Of a stretch of 64,000 nucleotides of DNA, positions 29,130 to 64,000 are shown piece by piece. Made by a program: the position numbers and the translations under genes. Under the pieces are notes generated by a model. The model was not told the DNA's origin, searched no databases, and was given only the letters and a program-made list of their open reading frames with translations. Position 1 is the first letter of the stretch; every line of letters begins with the position of its first letter. The stretch is from Haloterrigena sp. KLK7 (GTDB taxonomy: Archaea; Halobacteriota; Halobacteria; Halobacteriales; Natrialbaceae). Location: the NCBI RefSeq assembly GCF_037914945.1, contig NZ_CP149787.1:1-64000 (forward strand), given 5' to 3'.

Positions 29130-30470
29130 TCAGATCCGCTTTTCGACCGTTTGAACGCCCTCCGAGAGCGTCTCGCGTTTGAAGTACAGCGCCTCGACCG
29201 CGAAGACCGCCGCTGCGATGACGACGACCAGCCAGAAGACGGCCGGGAGCTGCGAGTAGAGGTACCAGGTCAGCATGACGAAGAAGGCGGCCGAACCGAT
29301 CGCGCCGAGCAGCGGCGGGATCGGATTGACGTCGACGTCGTCGGAATCGCGCACCGTCAGCGCGAGCGCGCACATGGTGCCGAAGACGACGATAAAGGCC
29401 AGCGAGGCGAACTCCACGACGGCCTCGAGGCTCCCGAGGACGGCGAAGGCGGCCGTCAGGACGCCGATGACGATCACGGTCCGCTTCGGCGCGGCGTCGG
29501 CGTCCGGATCGCCCATCTCGTGGGGGAGGATGTCGTCGCCGATCAGGTTCTTGGCGAAGATGGCCTCGCTGAACAGCGTCGAGTTGATCGCGCTGGCGGT
29601 CGAGATGAGCCCGGCGAGTCCGACCGCCAGCGCGAGCCACTTCGAGATCAGCAGACCGCCGTAGAGCAGCGCCGGTTCGGGCTGGGCGGCGACGACCTCT
29701 TCGGGCAAGAGCGTCGTGATCACGAACCCGACGAGGATGTAGATGGCGGCCGCGATCGGGATCGAGATATACACCCCCTTCGCGAGGGTCTCGTCGGGAT
29801 CGTCGAACTGCTCCTGATCGTAGAACAGCAGCTGCCAGCCCTCGAAGGAGACGAAGCCGACCGAGGCGGCGATTACGGGATTGAGACCGAGTTGGGAGAA
29901 GCCGGTCCGCAGCTGAAAGTTCGCCGCGCCGTACCAGAGGCCGATGAGACCGAAGGCGGCGATGATTCCCGCCTGGACGAACACGAGATAGCGCTCGACC
30001 GCCGCCGACGAGCCCGCACCGAGCAGGTTCAATCCGACGAAGACCGCGAGCACGCCGACCGAGAGGAACTGTCGGATCGGCAGTCCCCAGACGTACTCGA
30101 AGCCGATCAGCATCTGGCCGTACATCCCGAACGCGTAAGCGTACATCGCCATCGTTCCGATGTAGCCGACGACGAGCGTCCAGCCGACGACGCCCGCGGT
30201 CGTCGATCTGCCGGTCAGTTCCTCGATATACGTGACCGAGCCGCCGTCGCTGTCGGTCGCGTCGTTGAGCTTGACGTACGAGTACGCACAGCAGATGACG
30301 ACGACGGTCGCGAGACTGTAGGCGAACCACGTCAGGACTCCGGCGGCGGCGACGACGATCCCGATCGCCGCGTAGATCCCGCCGCCGACGATACCGCCGA
30401 CGCCCAGCGCGACGGCCGTTCCGACGCCGAACCCGTCGTCTCCGCCACCGTCGTCTCCGTCGTCGCTCAT
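29130..30470 (-). CDS. APC-superfamily amino acid permease
   Basis: 446-aa amino acid/polyamine/organocation permease with about twelve transmembrane helices. The first helix has the unwound GVGGIVGGGIYAAIG motif of the superfamily (substrate site). FVSFEGWQLLFYDQEQFDDPDETLAKGV is the equivalent of helix 6 to the following loop, and LISTASAINSTLFSEAIFAKNLIGDDILP completes the core. The ATG overlaps the stop codon of the upstream solute-binding lipoprotein (ATGA), so they are translationally coupled. A permease of this class normally works alone, so the pairing with an ABC-type binding protein is odd. Confidence 0.87.
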   Translation of the reverse strand: MSDDGDDGGGDDGFGVGTAVALGVGGIVGGGIYAAIGIVVAAAGVLTWFAYSLATVVVICCAYSYVKLNDATDSDGGSVTYIEELTGRSTTAGVVGWTLVVGYIGTMAMYAYAFGMYGQMLIGFEYVWGLPIRQFLSVGVLAVFVGLNLLGAGSSAAVERYLVFVQAGIIAAFGLIGLWYGAANFQLRTGFSQLGLNPVIAASVGFVSFEGWQLLFYDQEQFDDPDETLAKGVYISIPIAAAIYILVGFVITTLLPEEVVAAQPEPALLYGGLLISKWLALAVGLAGLISTASAINSTLFSEAIFAKNLIGDDILPHEMGDPDADAAPKRTVIVIGVLTAAFAVLGSLEAVVEFASLAFIVVFGTMCALALTVRDSDDVDVNPIPPLLGAIGSAAFFVMLTWYLYSQLPAVFWLVVVIAAAVFAVEALYFKRETLSEGVQTVEKRI

Positions 30471-32062
30471 GATCCCGACCCCACTGTGGCGACCTCGTTT
30501 TCCCACACGAGCCGCGGATTGACTCGTGCGATCGGATGGACGCGGAAGTTCTCGACGCCCGCGTCCACCGCGAAGCTGTTCTCGAACGAGCAGATCGGCA
30601 GGCAGACGCGGTCCTCGAGCAACCGCGTGATCGCCGCCTCGTAGAGCCGGCGCCGCTGCTCGCGATCCGTCGTCGTTCGCGCCGACTCGAGCCGTTCCAT
30701 GACGGCGTCCTCGCGGTAGAAGGTCCCGTTGGTCACGCCGGTCAGATTCTCGTGGAACGTCGGGTAGAGGTGCGAGTCCGGGTCGGGAGTGCCCGTGATC
30801 TCGCCGACGAACACCGAGTAGTCGCGCTCGGAGCCGGAGACGTACCGCTCGAGGAATTTCGTTTCGGACACCGAGACGGTGAGCGCGCCGTGACTGGCGT
30901 CCCGGAGGCCGCCGGCCAGCGCCTCGCCGAACTCCTTGTGTTTCGGATCCGTCGAGGTCAAGATGCGCAGTTGGCCGCTGGCCTCGTCGGCCTCGCGGAA
31001 CAGTTGGCGGGCCCGCTCGGGATTTTTCCCGTTCGCGAGTTCCGCCCACTCGTCGGTCGGCATATTCCACTCCTCGGCCACCTGCGGCGGCAGCGGGCTG
31101 TACTGGCGCTGTCCCATCGGTTCGACGAACTCGGAAACCGCTTTCTCGAGGTCGATGCAGTAGCTGATCGCCTCTCGAACCTGGGGGTCCGTCGTCGGTC
31201 CCTCGTTGCAGTTGAATCCGAAGTAGAACGACGTATACCCCTGTTGGCGCTTCACCGACGCGTTCGCGACGTCGCTGACGTGATCGACGATCAACGGCGA
31301 GACCGGCTCGATCATATCGTTTCGGTTCGTCCGGAGGCTGGTCAGCTGGGTCACCGGGAACTCGACGTAGACCATTGTGAGCCGATCGACCGCGGGCGAG
31401 GTCTCGCCCCAGTAGTCGTCCCAGCGCCGCAGCGTGGTCTTCTTCTCCGCGCTGAACGATGCCACCTCGAACGGACCGGCCCCGATCGGGTCCGTGGCGA
31501 ACGCCTCCCTGTCGTCCTCGCGCTCCTGCCGGGGAACGATCGGGTGCGTGAGCGCGTGCTCGAGCCCCGGATACGGCTCCGCCAGCGTGAACCGGACGGT
31601 GTGTTCGCCGTCGGCCTCGACCGATTCGAACGGGCTCGCCAGCCACTGCGTCGGCGCGTCCTCCTCGAGCGGCGCGGTGTAAGAGTAGACCACGTCTTCG
31701 GCGGTCACCGCCCGGTCGTTCTGAAACCGCGCCCGCTCGTCGAGTTCGACGACGACCTCCCGGTCGTTGTCGGCGATTTCCGGCGCTCCGGTCGCGATCG
31801 CGGGACCGATATCCGTCCCCGTCCCGTAGCTGTAGAGTCCCTCGAAGATCCGATCGATCGCCTGCTCGGAGCCGATCCCGTGTGCGGTGATGGGATCGAG
31901 CGAGAGCGGCGGCCGGAGCGTCCCGACGCGGAGCGTCGAGTCCGATTCCGATCCCAGCGTCGTCGAACAGCCCGCCAGTGCTGCCGTGCTCGCGCCGCCG
32001 AGGGCGGCGAGCAGGTCGCGTCGCGTCGTCCCGTCCGTTCGCGTGTCTCCCTGAGTAGTCAT
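30467..32062 (-). CDS. ABC-type oligopeptide/solute-binding lipoprotein (SBP_bac_5)
   Basis: 531-aa extracellular binding protein with a Tat signal and lipobox (TRRDLLAALGG ... AALAGC, Cys at about residue 32). The body has the standard order of the cluster C family: LRVGTLRPPLSLDPI, IFEGLYSYGTG, a YSYTAPL strand, DPIGAGPFEVASFSAEKK, VREAISYCIDLEKA, then a C-terminal lobe ending ...LLEDRVCLPICSFENSFAV. It is coupled by ATGA overlap to an APC permease; no ABC permease or ATPase gene is near. It contrasts with the permuted relative at 61511-63421. Ligand unknown (peptide, sugar or nickel-type). Confidence 0.88.
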   Translation of the reverse strand: MTTQGDTRTDGTTRRDLLAALGGASTAALAGCSTTLGSESDSTLRVGTLRPPLSLDPITAHGIGSEQAIDRIFEGLYSYGTGTDIGPAIATGAPEIADNDREVVVELDERARFQNDRAVTAEDVVYSYTAPLEEDAPTQWLASPFESVEADGEHTVRFTLAEPYPGLEHALTHPIVPRQEREDDREAFATDPIGAGPFEVASFSAEKKTTLRRWDDYWGETSPAVDRLTMVYVEFPVTQLTSLRTNRNDMIEPVSPLIVDHVSDVANASVKRQQGYTSFYFGFNCNEGPTTDPQVREAISYCIDLEKAVSEFVEPMGQRQYSPLPPQVAEEWNMPTDEWAELANGKNPERARQLFREADEASGQLRILTSTDPKHKEFGEALAGGLRDASHGALTVSVSETKFLERYVSGSERDYSVFVGEITGTPDPDSHLYPTFHENLTGVTNGTFYREDAVMERLESARTTTDREQRRRLYEAAITRLLEDRVCLPICSFENSFAVDAGVENFRVHPIARVNPRLVWENEVATVGSGS

Positions 32063-58941: not shown

Positions 58942-59104
58942 CGGAGAGTTGCTGTTCGCGAGCCGGAACGCCGCCGGCTCGTTCGAGGTGCTCGAGCCCC
59001 GTCTTCCCGTCTCGACGCGGTAAGTACTCGTTTCCATCGACAGCGCCGTCCCGAGTGCGTTCTCGAGCGCAGTGTCACCAGATTCTTCACGGGGAACGAC
59101 GACG

Positions 59105-60628
59105 ATGGCGGTAATGGGAGACCGGGACGGCGCGGGAGCGACGGTGCGAACGGCGCTCCGATCGCGGCAATCCATGGGGCTGCTCGCGGCCGTTCTCATC
59201 CTCGCGGTCGGGACGGTGCGTCCCCCGCCGGCGGCGTTGACCGTCGCGGGGCAACGCGCGCTGGCGGTCTTCGCGTCCGCGCTCGTCCTGTGGCTGACGC
59301 GGCCGGTTCCGTACGTCGTCTCGAGCGTCCTCAGCGTCACGTTACTGTTCGCGCTCGGGACGGTCGATTCGTTCAGCGCGGCGGCGACGGGCTTTACGTC
59401 GACGCTCGTGTTCTTTCTGCTCCTCCTGTTGCTGCTCGGCGACGCCACGACGAGCGTCGGTCTCGATCGACGGTTGGCGCGCCGACTGCTGACGGCGGAC
59501 AGCACGCCGCGGCGCGCGTTGCACTCGGTCGCCGGGAGCGTCCTCGCGCTGGCGCTGGTGATGCCGTCGGCGATGGCCCGCGCGGTAACGTTCATCCCGA
59601 TCGTGAAGCGACTCGCGGCCGCGTTCGGATCGGCCGACGACGGCTTCGAAACCGGGGCGTTTCTCGTCCTCGGTCACGTCAACCCGATCGCGTCGATGGC
59701 GCTGATGACCGGCGGCGGAATGGCGCTGGTCACCTCCGAGATCGTCGCGACCTCGGTGCGGCCGATAACCTGGGTCGACTGGGCCGTGTTGATGCTCCCG
59801 CCGACGATCGGTCTGTACGCGGCGGCGACCCTCTGTGCGGGCCTGTTCGCGGCGGTCGACGGAGAGTCGACGCTCGGCGCGAACGCCGGGACGCGACTGG
59901 AAGCGGACGGGGAGGGGACTGAATCCGAGACCGACGGTGACAGACCGAAACTGGAGACGGACGGGGAGGGGACGCGACCGGAGACGGACGGCGACGGACC
60001 GCCCGCGCTGACTCGGGACCAACGCCTCGTCGGGCTCGTCCTCCTCGGCGCCATCGCGGGCTGGATCGTCGGCTCGTTCGCGGGAGTGCCGACGGTCCTC
60101 CCGGCGGTCGCCGCGGTCGTCGTCCTCTCGCTTCCGTCCGTCAACATCATCACGGCCGACGATATCACGGCGGTGAACTGGGGAATCATCTTCCTCATCG
60201 GCGCGATGTTATCGATCCTCGAGGTGCTGGAGGCGACCGGCGCGATCGTCGCGGTCGTCGACGCCCTCACGCGGTGGATCCCGTTCGCGGCGCTCGCCCA
60301 CTGGCAGCTCGTCGCGGTGTTGATCGGCCTCGCCGTCGGGATTCGAATCCTGTTCTCGACCGGTTCGGCGGCGATCGTCGTGGCGCTCCCGATCGTTCTC
60401 GAGCTCGCGGCCGTTTTCGACGTCAACCGGCTGTATCTGGCGCTGACCGTCCTGCTGGTCGTCGGCTCGACGACGGTCCTTCCGTTCAACACGACGGCAG
60501 TGCTGGTGTCGATGGATCGCGGGCCGCTGTCGCACCGCGACGTCGCCTCGTTCGGCCTCGTGACGATGCTGCTCGCGGTGGGCGTCGCTGCCGTTTCGTG
60601 GCTCGTCTACTGGCCGTTAGTGGGCTGA
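59105..60628 (+). CDS. SLC13-family permease (divalent anion/Na+ symporter type)
   Basis: 507-aa transporter with eleven or more transmembrane helices and two repeats of the family: SVLSVTLLFALGTVDSFSAAATGFTSTLVFFLLLLLLL and later IFLIGAMLSILEVLEATGAIV, with IRILFSTGSAAIVVALPIVLELA as the second substrate loop. SLC13/DASS carriers move dicarboxylates, sulfate or phosphate with Na+. A 36-residue acidic stretch in a cytoplasmic loop (LEADGEGTESETDGDRP, then ETDGEGTRPETDGDGP) repeats the unit ETDG. The start is uncertain: GTG at 59072, ATG at 59105 and ATG at 59114 are in frame. Confidence 0.8.
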   Translation: MAVMGDRDGAGATVRTALRSRQSMGLLAAVLILAVGTVRPPPAALTVAGQRALAVFASALVLWLTRPVPYVVSSVLSVTLLFALGTVDSFSAAATGFTSTLVFFLLLLLLLGDATTSVGLDRRLARRLLTADSTPRRALHSVAGSVLALALVMPSAMARAVTFIPIVKRLAAAFGSADDGFETGAFLVLGHVNPIASMALMTGGGMALVTSEIVATSVRPITWVDWAVLMLPPTIGLYAAATLCAGLFAAVDGESTLGANAGTRLEADGEGTESETDGDRPKLETDGEGTRPETDGDGPPALTRDQRLVGLVLLGAIAGWIVGSFAGVPTVLPAVAAVVVLSLPSVNIITADDITAVNWGIIFLIGAMLSILEVLEATGAIVAVVDALTRWIPFAALAHWQLVAVLIGLAVGIRILFSTGSAAIVVALPIVLELAAVFDVNRLYLALTVLLVVGSTTVLPFNTTAVLVSMDRGPLSHRDVASFGLVTMLLAVGVAAVSWLVYWPLVG

Positions 60629-60720: not shown

Positions 60721-61386
60721 GTGCCGACTGGTGTGATGGCAAAGCTGCAGCGAGAGATGGACGACGTCCGGAGTATCGAGCTCGACAACGCCTTCTACGT
60801 CGAAGACGGGACGTGGATCGAGTCTCTGACCGTCGCGTCGAACTCGGAGTTCGACCCGGAAACCGTCATCGAGGAGATCTCCGGCGCGTCGCTGTTCTAC
60901 AGCAGCGAAATCCCGACCGCGTCGGAAGACCTCACGATCCGTCGGCTCACGATCCTGGCCACCGAATCGTATCCGTTCATCCTGAGTCTCGTCCTGCGCC
61001 AGGAGGCGATTCCGAACCGCATCGTCCTCCAGAACGGCGACTTCGAGGTCGTGGTGACGACGCGCGACTGGGACCAGTTCCGCTCGATGGCCGACGAGGT
61101 CCAGGAGACCCTCGGCGAGTTCGAACTGCTGTCGGTCACCCAGAACGAGGACCCCGGCGAACCGCTCGATAGCGGGAGATTAACGGAGGTTCTCGTCTCG
61201 AAACTCACCGACGAGCAGTTGGCGGTCCTCGAGACCGCCTACGAGCACGGCTACTTCGACATCCCTCGCGAGTCGTCGGCGACCGAACTCGCCGACGAAC
61301 TCGAGATCGCGCAGTCGACGGTGAGCGAGCGACTTCGGACCGCCGAGCGAACGTTGCTCGAACTCATCTACGGGCCGCGAGAGTGA
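60721..61386 (+). CDS. Bat-type HTH regulator (HTH_10)
   Basis: 221-aa regulator: an N-terminal sensor-like domain (RSIELDNAFYVEDGTWIESLTV, LFYSSEIPTASEDLTIRRLTIL, EAIPNRIVLQNGDFEVVVTTRDW) and a C-terminal HTH_10 domain (LTDEQLAVLETAYEHGYFDIPRESSATELADELEIAQSTVSERLRTAERTLL). This is the bacterio-opsin-activator type that controls catabolic or stress genes; it may regulate the adjacent ABC operon. Starts at GTG 60721 (PTGVMAKL matches the family start style); ATG at 60736 is an alternative. A TATA box (GTATATATG, about 60651-60659) gives a leader of about 40 nt with a CTTCCCTGTAGGGAGG hairpin. Confidence 0.83.
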   Translation: MPTGVMAKLQREMDDVRSIELDNAFYVEDGTWIESLTVASNSEFDPETVIEEISGASLFYSSEIPTASEDLTIRRLTILATESYPFILSLVLRQEAIPNRIVLQNGDFEVVVTTRDWDQFRSMADEVQETLGEFELLSVTQNEDPGEPLDSGRLTEVLVSKLTDEQLAVLETAYEHGYFDIPRESSATELADELEIAQSTVSERLRTAERTLLELIYGPRE

Positions 61387-61510: not shown

Positions 61511-63421
61511 ATGACGACCCAAGAAAATCATGACAGATCGGTCGCTGGGGGAAGTGACCGACTCACACGACGCGGCTACGTCGCCGCGGCCGCCGCGGCG
61601 CTCGGGACGAGCGTGCTCGCGGGCTGTAGCGGCAGCCGCGGCACCAGCCTCGAGCCGGACGTCCCGGACGGCGTTCCGGAGACCGTCGACACGCAGTACT
61701 GGCGGGACTGGGAGACCGTCGACGCCGACTCACCGCCGTTGGACTACAGCGCGACGGCCGGTGCGGTACTCGATCGGTTCCCCGTCGAGTTCTCGAGCGA
61801 GGACGACCCCTGGATGCGCGAACACGCGTTGATGGTCAAACGCGGCCTCGAGGACCTGGGAATCGCCGTCAGGCTCAACGACCGACCGCTGAATCAGCTG
61901 TACGCCCAGAGCTGGACGGCAAACGGGCTCGAGGCGGTCGTCTCGATGAGCACGCACGGGCCCGACCCGCAGCGGGGACTCGATCCCAATCCGCTGTTGA
62001 TGCGCCGGACCGAGGGCTCACTCTCGAACTACGACAACTACTACCACCCGGAGCTCCAGGAGGTGCTCACCGAGCAGGCCCAGACGACCGATCGCGCCGA
62101 ACGCGAGGAACTCGTCGACCGGGCACAGGAGCTCTTCGCCGAGGACGTCGGGGGGCTCATCACGCTCTTCCCGAACATCATCACGGCGGTGAACACGGAG
62201 CGGTGGACCGGCTACGTGGAGACGCCGGGGAACGGCCCGACGATGGACTCGTTCGTCTGGACCGAGGTCAACCTCCAGCCCGAGACGGACAGCCGAACCT
62301 ACGTCAAGGGCGTCACCACGTCGATGAACTCGCTGAACCTGCCGTGGGCCGCCGGCGGCGCGGAGGCCAAGCGACTCACGTTCATCTACGACGGCCTGTT
62401 CGACGCGACGCCCGACCTCGACGTGGTGCCCGCGCTCGCGACCGGCGGCGGGTTCGTCGACGACACGACCGTCGAACTCGAGCTCCGCGAGGGCGTCGAG
62501 TGGCACGATGGCGAGGCGTTCACCGCCGAGGACGTGAAGTTCACCGTCGAACTGTACGACGAATACGCATCGACGAGTCAGGTGCCGTTCTACGAGCCGA
62601 TCGAGTCGGTCGAGGTCCTCGGGGATCACGAGGTGCGGTTCAACCTGTCGAACCCCGACGCGTCGTTCATGACCCAGCGGCTCGTCCGGAGCGTCATACT
62701 CCCGAAACATCGGTGGGAGGACGTCGACAACCCGTCCCAGCACAATCCGGATGCGCCCGTCGGAACCGGCCCCTTCCAGTTCGAGAACTGGGAGCAGGGG
62801 ACCCGGTTCGAGGCCACGCGCAACGACGGCCACTGGATGTTCGACGACGACTGGCGGGCCGACGCCCTCGGCGACCAGGCCGAGCGCGGCCCCGGCGTCG
62901 AGAGCGTCATCTGGATCAACGTGAGCAACGTCGACGCGCTGATCGGCTCGCTCCAGAGCGGGTCGATCGACGCCATCGGGACGAACCTCTCGGACCTGCA
63001 GGCCGACCGCGCGGCCAACGCGGACGGAATCGAGAAAATGTCGACCGGGAGCTACGCGCCGCTGGACACGAAGCTCATGTTCTCCTGTCCGCCGATCCGG
63101 GACAAGGAGTTCCGCATCGCGCTGGCGAAGGCGGTCGACTCGAAGGGGTTCGTCGAGGACTTCCTTCAGGGTCAGGCGACGGTGCCGGCCGGCGAGAACC
63201 CGATCTCGTCGCTCACCCAGTGGCACAACCCCGATACGACCGACTACAGCTACGACGTCGAGGAAGCCAAGAACGTCCTCGAGCGAGCGGGCTACACCTG
63301 GGACGACGACGACAATCTGCGCTTCCCCAACGGCGAGGCGTGGAGCGCGTTCGTCGAACGAATCCAGCCCGAGAACACTCACAAACGCCGCGAGGAACTC
63401 GGTCAACCCGACTTCTCATGA
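61511..63421 (+). CDS. ABC solute-binding lipoprotein, SBP_bac_5 with circularly permuted lobes
   Basis: 636-aa lipoprotein with Tat signal (LTRRGYVAAAAAA) and lipobox Cys39 (VLAGC). Residues about 100-250 (EHALMVKRGLEDLGIAVRLN, TEGSLSNYDNYYHPELQEVL, a helical DRAEREELVDRAQELF) look like the C-terminal lobe of the family, yet they come first. After them, residues about 262-636 carry the normal N-terminal part: RLTFIYDGLFDATPDLDVVPALATGG, VEWHDGEAFTAEDVKFTVEL, NPDAPVGTGPFQFENWEQ, REFRIALAKAVDSKGFVEDF, YDVEEAKNVLERAGY. The protein ends at a point equal to the middle of the canonical C-lobe. It starts the dpp/opp-like operon that continues with a permease. Ligand unknown. Confidence 0.85.
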   Translation: MTTQENHDRSVAGGSDRLTRRGYVAAAAAALGTSVLAGCSGSRGTSLEPDVPDGVPETVDTQYWRDWETVDADSPPLDYSATAGAVLDRFPVEFSSEDDPWMREHALMVKRGLEDLGIAVRLNDRPLNQLYAQSWTANGLEAVVSMSTHGPDPQRGLDPNPLLMRRTEGSLSNYDNYYHPELQEVLTEQAQTTDRAEREELVDRAQELFAEDVGGLITLFPNIITAVNTERWTGYVETPGNGPTMDSFVWTEVNLQPETDSRTYVKGVTTSMNSLNLPWAAGGAEAKRLTFIYDGLFDATPDLDVVPALATGGGFVDDTTVELELREGVEWHDGEAFTAEDVKFTVELYDEYASTSQVPFYEPIESVEVLGDHEVRFNLSNPDASFMTQRLVRSVILPKHRWEDVDNPSQHNPDAPVGTGPFQFENWEQGTRFEATRNDGHWMFDDDWRADALGDQAERGPGVESVIWINVSNVDALIGSLQSGSIDAIGTNLSDLQADRAANADGIEKMSTGSYAPLDTKLMFSCPPIRDKEFRIALAKAVDSKGFVEDFLQGQATVPAGENPISSLTQWHNPDTTDYSYDVEEAKNVLERAGYTWDDDDNLRFPNGEAWSAFVERIQPENTHKRREELGQPDFS

Positions 63422-63612
63422 ACAACCAGTACCCAATGCATCACACCACAGCCCGTTTCCCGCGAACCCCGCGGGAGCGGAACCGATTCGAGGCGAACCG
63501 ACACCCCGACCGCGCCGCCGCTCGAGCCGATGGCACGTCCCTCGAGCGCGGCGACGTCGGTGCGACGAAGCGGCCGGCGACCGAGCGCGATACCGCGGGT
63601 GAGAGCCGATGA
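63418..63612 (+). CDS. Small Arg-rich ORF wedged between SBP and permease genes, 64 aa
   Basis: 64-aa frame starting MNNQYPMHHTTARFPRTPRE, strongly basic. It overlaps the SBP stop and the permease start by ATGA at both ends, so it would be translationally coupled on both sides. Near its end GGGTGAGAGCCG provides a Shine-Dalgarno-like sequence for the permease gene. Its composition, Arg-rich and low in acidic residues, is unlike a haloarchaeal protein, so it may serve only as a ribosome bridge or be spurious. Confidence 0.35.
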   Translation: MNNQYPMHHTTARFPRTPRERNRFEANRHPDRAAARADGTSLERGDVGATKRPATERDTAGESR

Positions 63613-64000
63613 GCAAGTTCCAGCGGTTCCTGCTCAAGCGGCTCGCGATCTCCGTCCTGCTGACGCTGATCGCGGTCTCGGTCATCTTCGTCGTCCTGCG
63701 GCTCCTGCCGGGGAGTCCCTTCGAGGCGCTCGTGACCTCGGGGAACTTAAACCAGGAACAGATCGACGAGATCCGGGCGATGTACGGCCTCGATCAGTCG
63801 ATCTGGGCCCAGTACGTCAACTACCTCGGGAGCCTGCTGACCTTCCAGTTCGGCTACTCGATCCTGCGGAGCCAGCCGGTCTGGGACGTCCTCGAGCCGC
63901 GGCTGATCAACTCGCTGATCCTGCTGGTACCCGCGCTGGTGACGACGGCGATCCTGAGTTCGGTGCTGGGCATGTACGCCGGCTGGAACCGAGGGAGCCG
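63609..64000 (+). CDS. ABC transporter permease (DppB/OppB-type), 3' end cut by window
   Basis: At least 130 residues are present; the gene runs beyond the window end. It begins MSKFQRFLLKRLAISVLLTL and continues with IAVSVIFVVLRLLPGSPFEAL, LDQSIWAQYVNYLGSLLTFQ (FGYSILR), the transmembrane LINSLILLVPALVTTAIL and the family GMYAGW. The conserved LLPGSPFEALV and FGxS motifs identify it as a DppB-family permease. It is the inner-membrane partner of the SBP just upstream; ATGA-coupled via the 64-aa frame. The RBS is GGGTGAGAGCCG. Confidence 0.92.
   Translation, partial: MSKFQRFLLKRLAISVLLTLIAVSVIFVVLRLLPGSPFEALVTSGNLNQEQIDEIRAMYGLDQSIWAQYVNYLGSLLTFQFGYSILRSQPVWDVLEPRLINSLILLVPALVTTAILSSVLGMYAGWNRGS

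Follow-up and report, generated by a model that had tools for sequence, protein, structure and literature searches.

Cluster C substrate-binding proteins (SBPs; Pfam SBP_bac_5, PF00496), including DppA, OppA, AppA and NikA, are the closest described relatives of the protein reported here. OppA and DppA have their native termini in the N-lobe and two chain crossings between the lobes. Glycine-betaine-binding proteins of the OpuAC type, which belong to another SBP cluster, are described as rotated relative to their relatives. TpMglB-2 (Tp0684), a 'Type Ic / cluster Bc' glucose-binding protein, is a natural and functional circular permutant, lipid-tethered and with same-topology relatives in many species (PMC4990184). 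While circular permutation of SBPs is already known from cluster B, no report of it in an OppA/DppA-type (cluster C) protein was found in the open-access literature, and a rotated class within cluster C has so far gone unrecognized. Among the very numerous family-5 SBPs, a large share of the haloarchaeal proteins, along with proteins from several bacterial phyla, carry this unrecognized chain order; curated models take permuted SBPs for truncated domains (in the proteins scanned, no NCBIfam or Pfam model matched the rotated order) and solved structures cover none of them.

We analyzed a 64,000-nt stretch of DNA from Haloterrigena sp. KLK7 (hereafter the window), in which one gene encodes a 636-aa SBP_bac_5 lipoprotein (Table 1). 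The original prediction, made from the sequence, held that this protein is circularly permuted, with C-lobe segments preceding the N-lobe, no duplicated N-terminal motifs and an end point just after AKNVLERAGY. The protein shares its segments, its kind of operon partners and significant matches to both of its parts with cluster C SBPs but differs from them in that it is rotated, would carry its lipid anchor on the other lobe and lacks conserved equivalents of DppA R383 and D436. Compared with TpMglB-2, which has a cluster B fold, a sugar ligand and a permutation that adds a fourth inter-lobe crossover, the chain break of the window protein lies inside the C-lobe.

Table 1. Features of the permuted SBP gene and its neighborhood, in window coordinates.
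Feature	Coordinates	Strand	Basis
HTH_10 regulator (bacterio-opsin-activator type), upstream	60721..61386	+	Domain match; Natrinema salinisoli annotation
Circularly permuted SBP_bac_5 lipoprotein gene (probable), 636 aa	61511..63421	+	ORF, Pfam, canonical HMM, AlphaFold2
Tat signal and lipobox: RR20-21, LAGC with Cys39	61511..61627	+	Sequence; alignment
Linker/extension, residues 40–83, from Cys39 to moved segment	61628..61759	+	AlphaFold2
Moved segment and joining linker to N-lobe, residues 84–257; equals second half of canonical C-lobe	61760..62281	+	Canonical HMM, profile match to DppA 354–491
N-lobe and first half of C-lobe, residues 258–611, HMM 57–391, ending in AKNVLERAGYTWDDDDNLRFPNG	62282..63343	+	Pfam, structure matches, HMM
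C-terminal tail, residues 612–636, and stop	63344..63421	+	Sequence, HMM, AlphaFold2
DppB-type permease gene, same operon; continues past the window to 64604 in genome coordinates	63609..64000	+	ORF list; Natrinema salinisoli annotation
Canonical-order SBP_bac_5 protein, control in the same window	30467..32062	-	Pfam, canonical HMM

The reading frame is intact (ATG start, 636 codons) and its segments run from the signal and lipobox through the second half of the C-lobe and then the N-lobe to the first half of the C-lobe. Pfam SBP_bac_5 covers only profile positions 2–288 of 368, at residues 305–609 (186 bits versus a cut-off of 32.4); the other SBP in the window, which had been predicted to have the normal order and served as control, does match in that order, over profile positions 2–363. 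With an HMM trained on 32 canonical archaeal SBPs of family 5 (mostly from outside Halobacteria), we found that positions 403–529 match approximately residues 99–229 (E = 5e-11) and positions 57–391 match residues 258–611 (E = 5e-62; P0001 numbering). These two matches are inverted and non-overlapping, with one copy of each and nothing major missing, in agreement with the predicted lack of duplicated motifs, and the inverted order is well outside what chance would give. A profile of residues 84–264 and their relatives matches DppA chain positions 354–491 (E = 9e-20) and also the corresponding stretch in dozens of further solved cluster C SBPs, and in a whole-family profile the later part (~250–570) aligns to chain positions ~10–350. 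Outside the moved piece, the protein matches chain positions ~10–370 of canonical relatives. This two-piece pattern is weak against single solved structures and strong with profiles.

The protein holds the full SBP_bac_5 complement of N-lobe and C-lobe segments and lacks the canonical N-lobe-to-C-lobe chain order, an inversion that makes it a permuted variant of SBP_bac_5 (cluster C) and not an ordinary member. A short linker connects its old C and N termini. The break falls within the C-lobe hairpin, past AKNVLERAGYTWDDDDNLRFPNG, and separates the AKxLLEEAGY...DG part from the next strand, so that the chain stops soon after the motif named in the original prediction and before the second C-lobe half. 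Among the matches listed, the best sequence and fold matches were all to cluster C proteins, and no PDB chain with the rotated order was found in sequence-profile and Foldseek searches of solved structures.

Structure prediction, which had been proposed as a check, yielded one compact AlphaFold2 model of the whole chain (mean pLDDT 90.2, pTM 0.86), with low confidence at residues 1–42 only and mostly >85 pLDDT from approximately residue 50; because the underlying alignment contained permuted proteins only, this model tests foldability and not history. The top Foldseek matches of the model were the cluster C SBPs AppA, NikZ, CtaP and DppA (E down to 4e-19), with sequential TM-scores of only ~0.41 by query and ~0.50 by target over ~360–420 columns, as expected for a partly rotated chain. 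When folded by itself, the moved piece reached a pLDDT of 62, in line with a need for the other half of its lobe, and the matches of this poor model were nearly all cluster C SBPs, none of them significant. The proposed fold match to canonical SBPs rests on sequence profiles together with model confidence.

Based on the segment order, the lack of duplicated or missing segments, the single fold predicted with confidence and the recurrence of this order in 157 distinct frames, we estimate a probability of about 0.88 that the 636-aa protein is a circular permutant of a cluster C SBP (SBP_bac_5, OppA/DppA/NikA-type), a reading that takes in its presumed flytrap action and its origin by duplication. 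That Pfam gives only one truncated domain would also fit a fusion of two unrelated partial SBP pieces, or a decayed or misassembled gene. However, each half is present exactly once with one breakpoint, the chain gives a confident compact model, and purifying selection acts on both parts in close orthologs (dN/dS of 0.08–0.24 in comparisons of the window gene with eleven orthologs); the order conserved among these frames, which come from many genomes, already refutes such an explanation, and we leave it only the slightest probability.

The permuted protein could have arisen by in-frame tandem duplication of an SBP, after which the N-lobe side of the first copy and the C-lobe side of the last would have been lost while the signal peptide was kept. 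One open frame in another haloarchaeon (L249; G002:C1:2360500-2367500) contains two tandem family-5 SBP copies, with a seemingly single signal region and a C-terminal tail that is dockerin- or EF-hand-like by appearance. Both it and the window protein are haloarchaeal family-5 SBPs with altered architecture, but each copy in L249 has the canonical order. This tandem frame shows that the duplication step of a duplication-and-truncation route does occur; we take it as a model of that step only and claim no ancestry of the permuted proteins.

Altogether, 157 distinct frames were classified as permuted and 77 as canonical, numbers that are not frequencies because the permuted frames were collected by similarity to permuted queries. 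A 636-aa frame of genome G200 looked permuted at first and was ruled out, its order being canonical by HMM. Full-length orthologs of the window protein (49–93% identity) occur in 37 of 194 Halobacteria genomes, its own included, and paralogs at 26–32% identity, aligned over most of the length, in many more. Three further SBP_bac_5 proteins are permuted in its own genome, and ten haloarchaeal genomes hold ~23 permuted versus 29 canonical family-5 SBPs (~23/52). No permuted SBPs were found in sampled genomes of the same phylum outside Halobacteria. A restriction of the permuted form to haloarchaea had to be dropped, since bacterial phyla carry permuted proteins too and a second clade exists (P2, below): the 157 frames span haloarchaea, Alphaproteobacteria, Trueperaceae, Thermomicrobia, Armatimonadetes and a Bacillota MAG.

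Permuted homologs were verified on plasmids of the Alphaproteobacteria Nitratireductor, Roseomonas, Neorhizobium, Ketogulonicigenium and Maritalea, and no lipobox was seen in these plasmid-borne proteins. A scan of bacterial and archaeal genomes returned 80 loci, a number that is no measure of class abundance as the query was one narrow bacterial subfamily; the matched gene was permuted in 80/80, including loci from Trueperaceae (one on a complete chromosome), Thermomicrobia, Armatimonadetes and a Bacillota MAG. In the phylum of the scanned Trueperaceae genome, colinear matches from the moved segment to the end were present in 10 of 111 genomes. Proteins from that phylum (L241–L245, from G338, G329, G327, G331 and G328) are 61–65% identical to the permuted SBP of Nitratireductor sp. 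OM-1, a likeness that suggests inter-phylum transfer. A permuted SBP on plasmid 2 of Halalkalicoccus jeotgali (L240), aligned over 98% of its length, has 38% identity to the Nitratireductor protein, which points to exchange between haloarchaea and Alphaproteobacteria.

Trees were built on de-permuted alignments and also on the N-segment alone. Most permuted proteins, including the window gene product and those of haloarchaea, Alphaproteobacteria and Thermomicrobia, form one clade (P1; support 99/95, or 99/97 on the N-segment alone). P2 consists of a paralog encoded in the window's own genome (frame G000:C1:625769-627430) and its relatives, and is placed with canonical proteins of haloarchaea (95/85). 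P1 chains stop past the first hairpin strand; in P2, L005, L101 and L108 stop approximately one helix sooner and have the AKxLLxxAG helix at the N terminus, and L097–L099 stop just past this helix.

These trees bear on the number of origins and leave the permutation itself untouched. Two separate origins for P1 and P2 are favoured by the sequence comparisons though not proven, because constraining all permuted proteins to one clade gives an AU p value of 0.024 on the full alignment but 0.23 on the N-segment alone; the former weakens a single origin and the latter is compatible with one. A single permutation, with tree error explaining the position of P2 among canonical proteins or with a later slide of its breakpoint, is a less probable account that nevertheless deserves serious weight: the P1 and P2 breakpoints fall within ~35 HMM columns of each other, and P2 itself has two breakpoints, which means that breakpoints can shift. 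Against it stand not only the placement of P2 in the full de-permuted tree but also the bootstrap trees, 0/200 of which unite all permuted proteins, and the scores of L005, L101 and L108, which reach 179–183 bits against the best canonical proteins versus 105–124 against P1.

Extending the account with two origins, we give even odds to a broader proposal in which cluster C SBPs were permuted at least twice, convergently in one C-lobe region, giving rise to a widespread class with a membrane anchor (archaea) or a free N terminus (bacteria) on the C-lobe, next to the ligand site; a freed N-lobe or altered docking to the permease may have favored this placement. Recurrent permutation in one region would make both the role of the anchored lobe in SBP function and the rise of natural circular permutants directly testable.

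The original prediction also suggested that permutation could alter how the two lobes close on the ligand, for which the analyses made gave no support. Because a cut inside the C-lobe should keep both inter-lobe crossovers, flytrap closure would be unchanged, and the chain would fold as the usual two-lobed flytrap; what would change instead is the lobe that bears the lipid anchor, shifted from the N-lobe to the C-lobe near a strand lining the ligand site. R20, R21, G38 and C39 are invariant in an alignment of 40 permuted haloarchaeal proteins. The permuted SBP would then bind its solute, close and hand the solute to the DppBC-type permease encoded just downstream.

The DppB-type permease gene is followed by a second permease gene and a 741-aa frame with two ABC ATPase modules, and this order (SBP, permease, permease, double ATPase) is likewise annotated in Natrinema salinisoli, which also has a helix-turn-helix gene at the place matching the upstream regulator. 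Together with the RR and LAGC export signal, the two permeases and the ABC ATPases indicate that the 636-aa protein most likely serves a Dpp-like importer as lipid-anchored SBPs ordinarily do, its anchor being on the other lobe. The regulator gene, and the lack of a DppB-type gene directly downstream in some permuted subfamilies (for example, L007/L008 and L055–L063), would suit a sensor or scavenging lipoprotein that serves no transporter; we consider this improbable, as permease and ATPase genes follow the window gene on the same strand and most permuted genes are arranged likewise, with a same-strand DppB-type gene downstream in 129 of the 154 that have enough flank.

In DppA, R383 and D436 clamp the ends of the dipeptide, and dipeptide binding is lost in the protein carrying R383D and D436R (PMC12136057). 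Both residues fall in the part equivalent to the moved segment, where neither is conserved at the aligned positions (numbering of PMC12136057), and the second (D436) site instead has R-x(1,2)-DP in 132 of 151 P1 proteins versus 5 of 77 canonical ones. For these reasons, the permuted protein probably does not bind a plain free dipeptide in the way DppA does. Some bacterial relatives adjoin M20/M28 peptidase and hydantoinase/oxoprolinase genes, and some a gamma-glutamylcyclotransferase-family gene; the L240 operon contains creatininase-family and M20 genes. The bacterial peptidase and oxoprolinase neighbors raise modified or cyclised amino-acid compounds as candidate ligands, a suggestion that is speculative for the window protein.

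Near upstream of the SBP operon, the window encodes an SLC13-type (Na_sulph_symp) permease (59072–60628), and Natrinema salinisoli has like neighbors. Elsewhere in the same genome (G000:C1:625769-635235), Dpp-like transporter genes follow a P2 permuted SBP (of the L015/L013 pair), and ~6 kb beyond it, on the opposite strand, is a P1 permuted SBP without a DppB-type gene directly downstream. Another P2 permuted SBP adjoins an SBP_bac_5 match with an in-frame TAG (L250; G006:C1:410258-411382), which is possibly a decayed gene.
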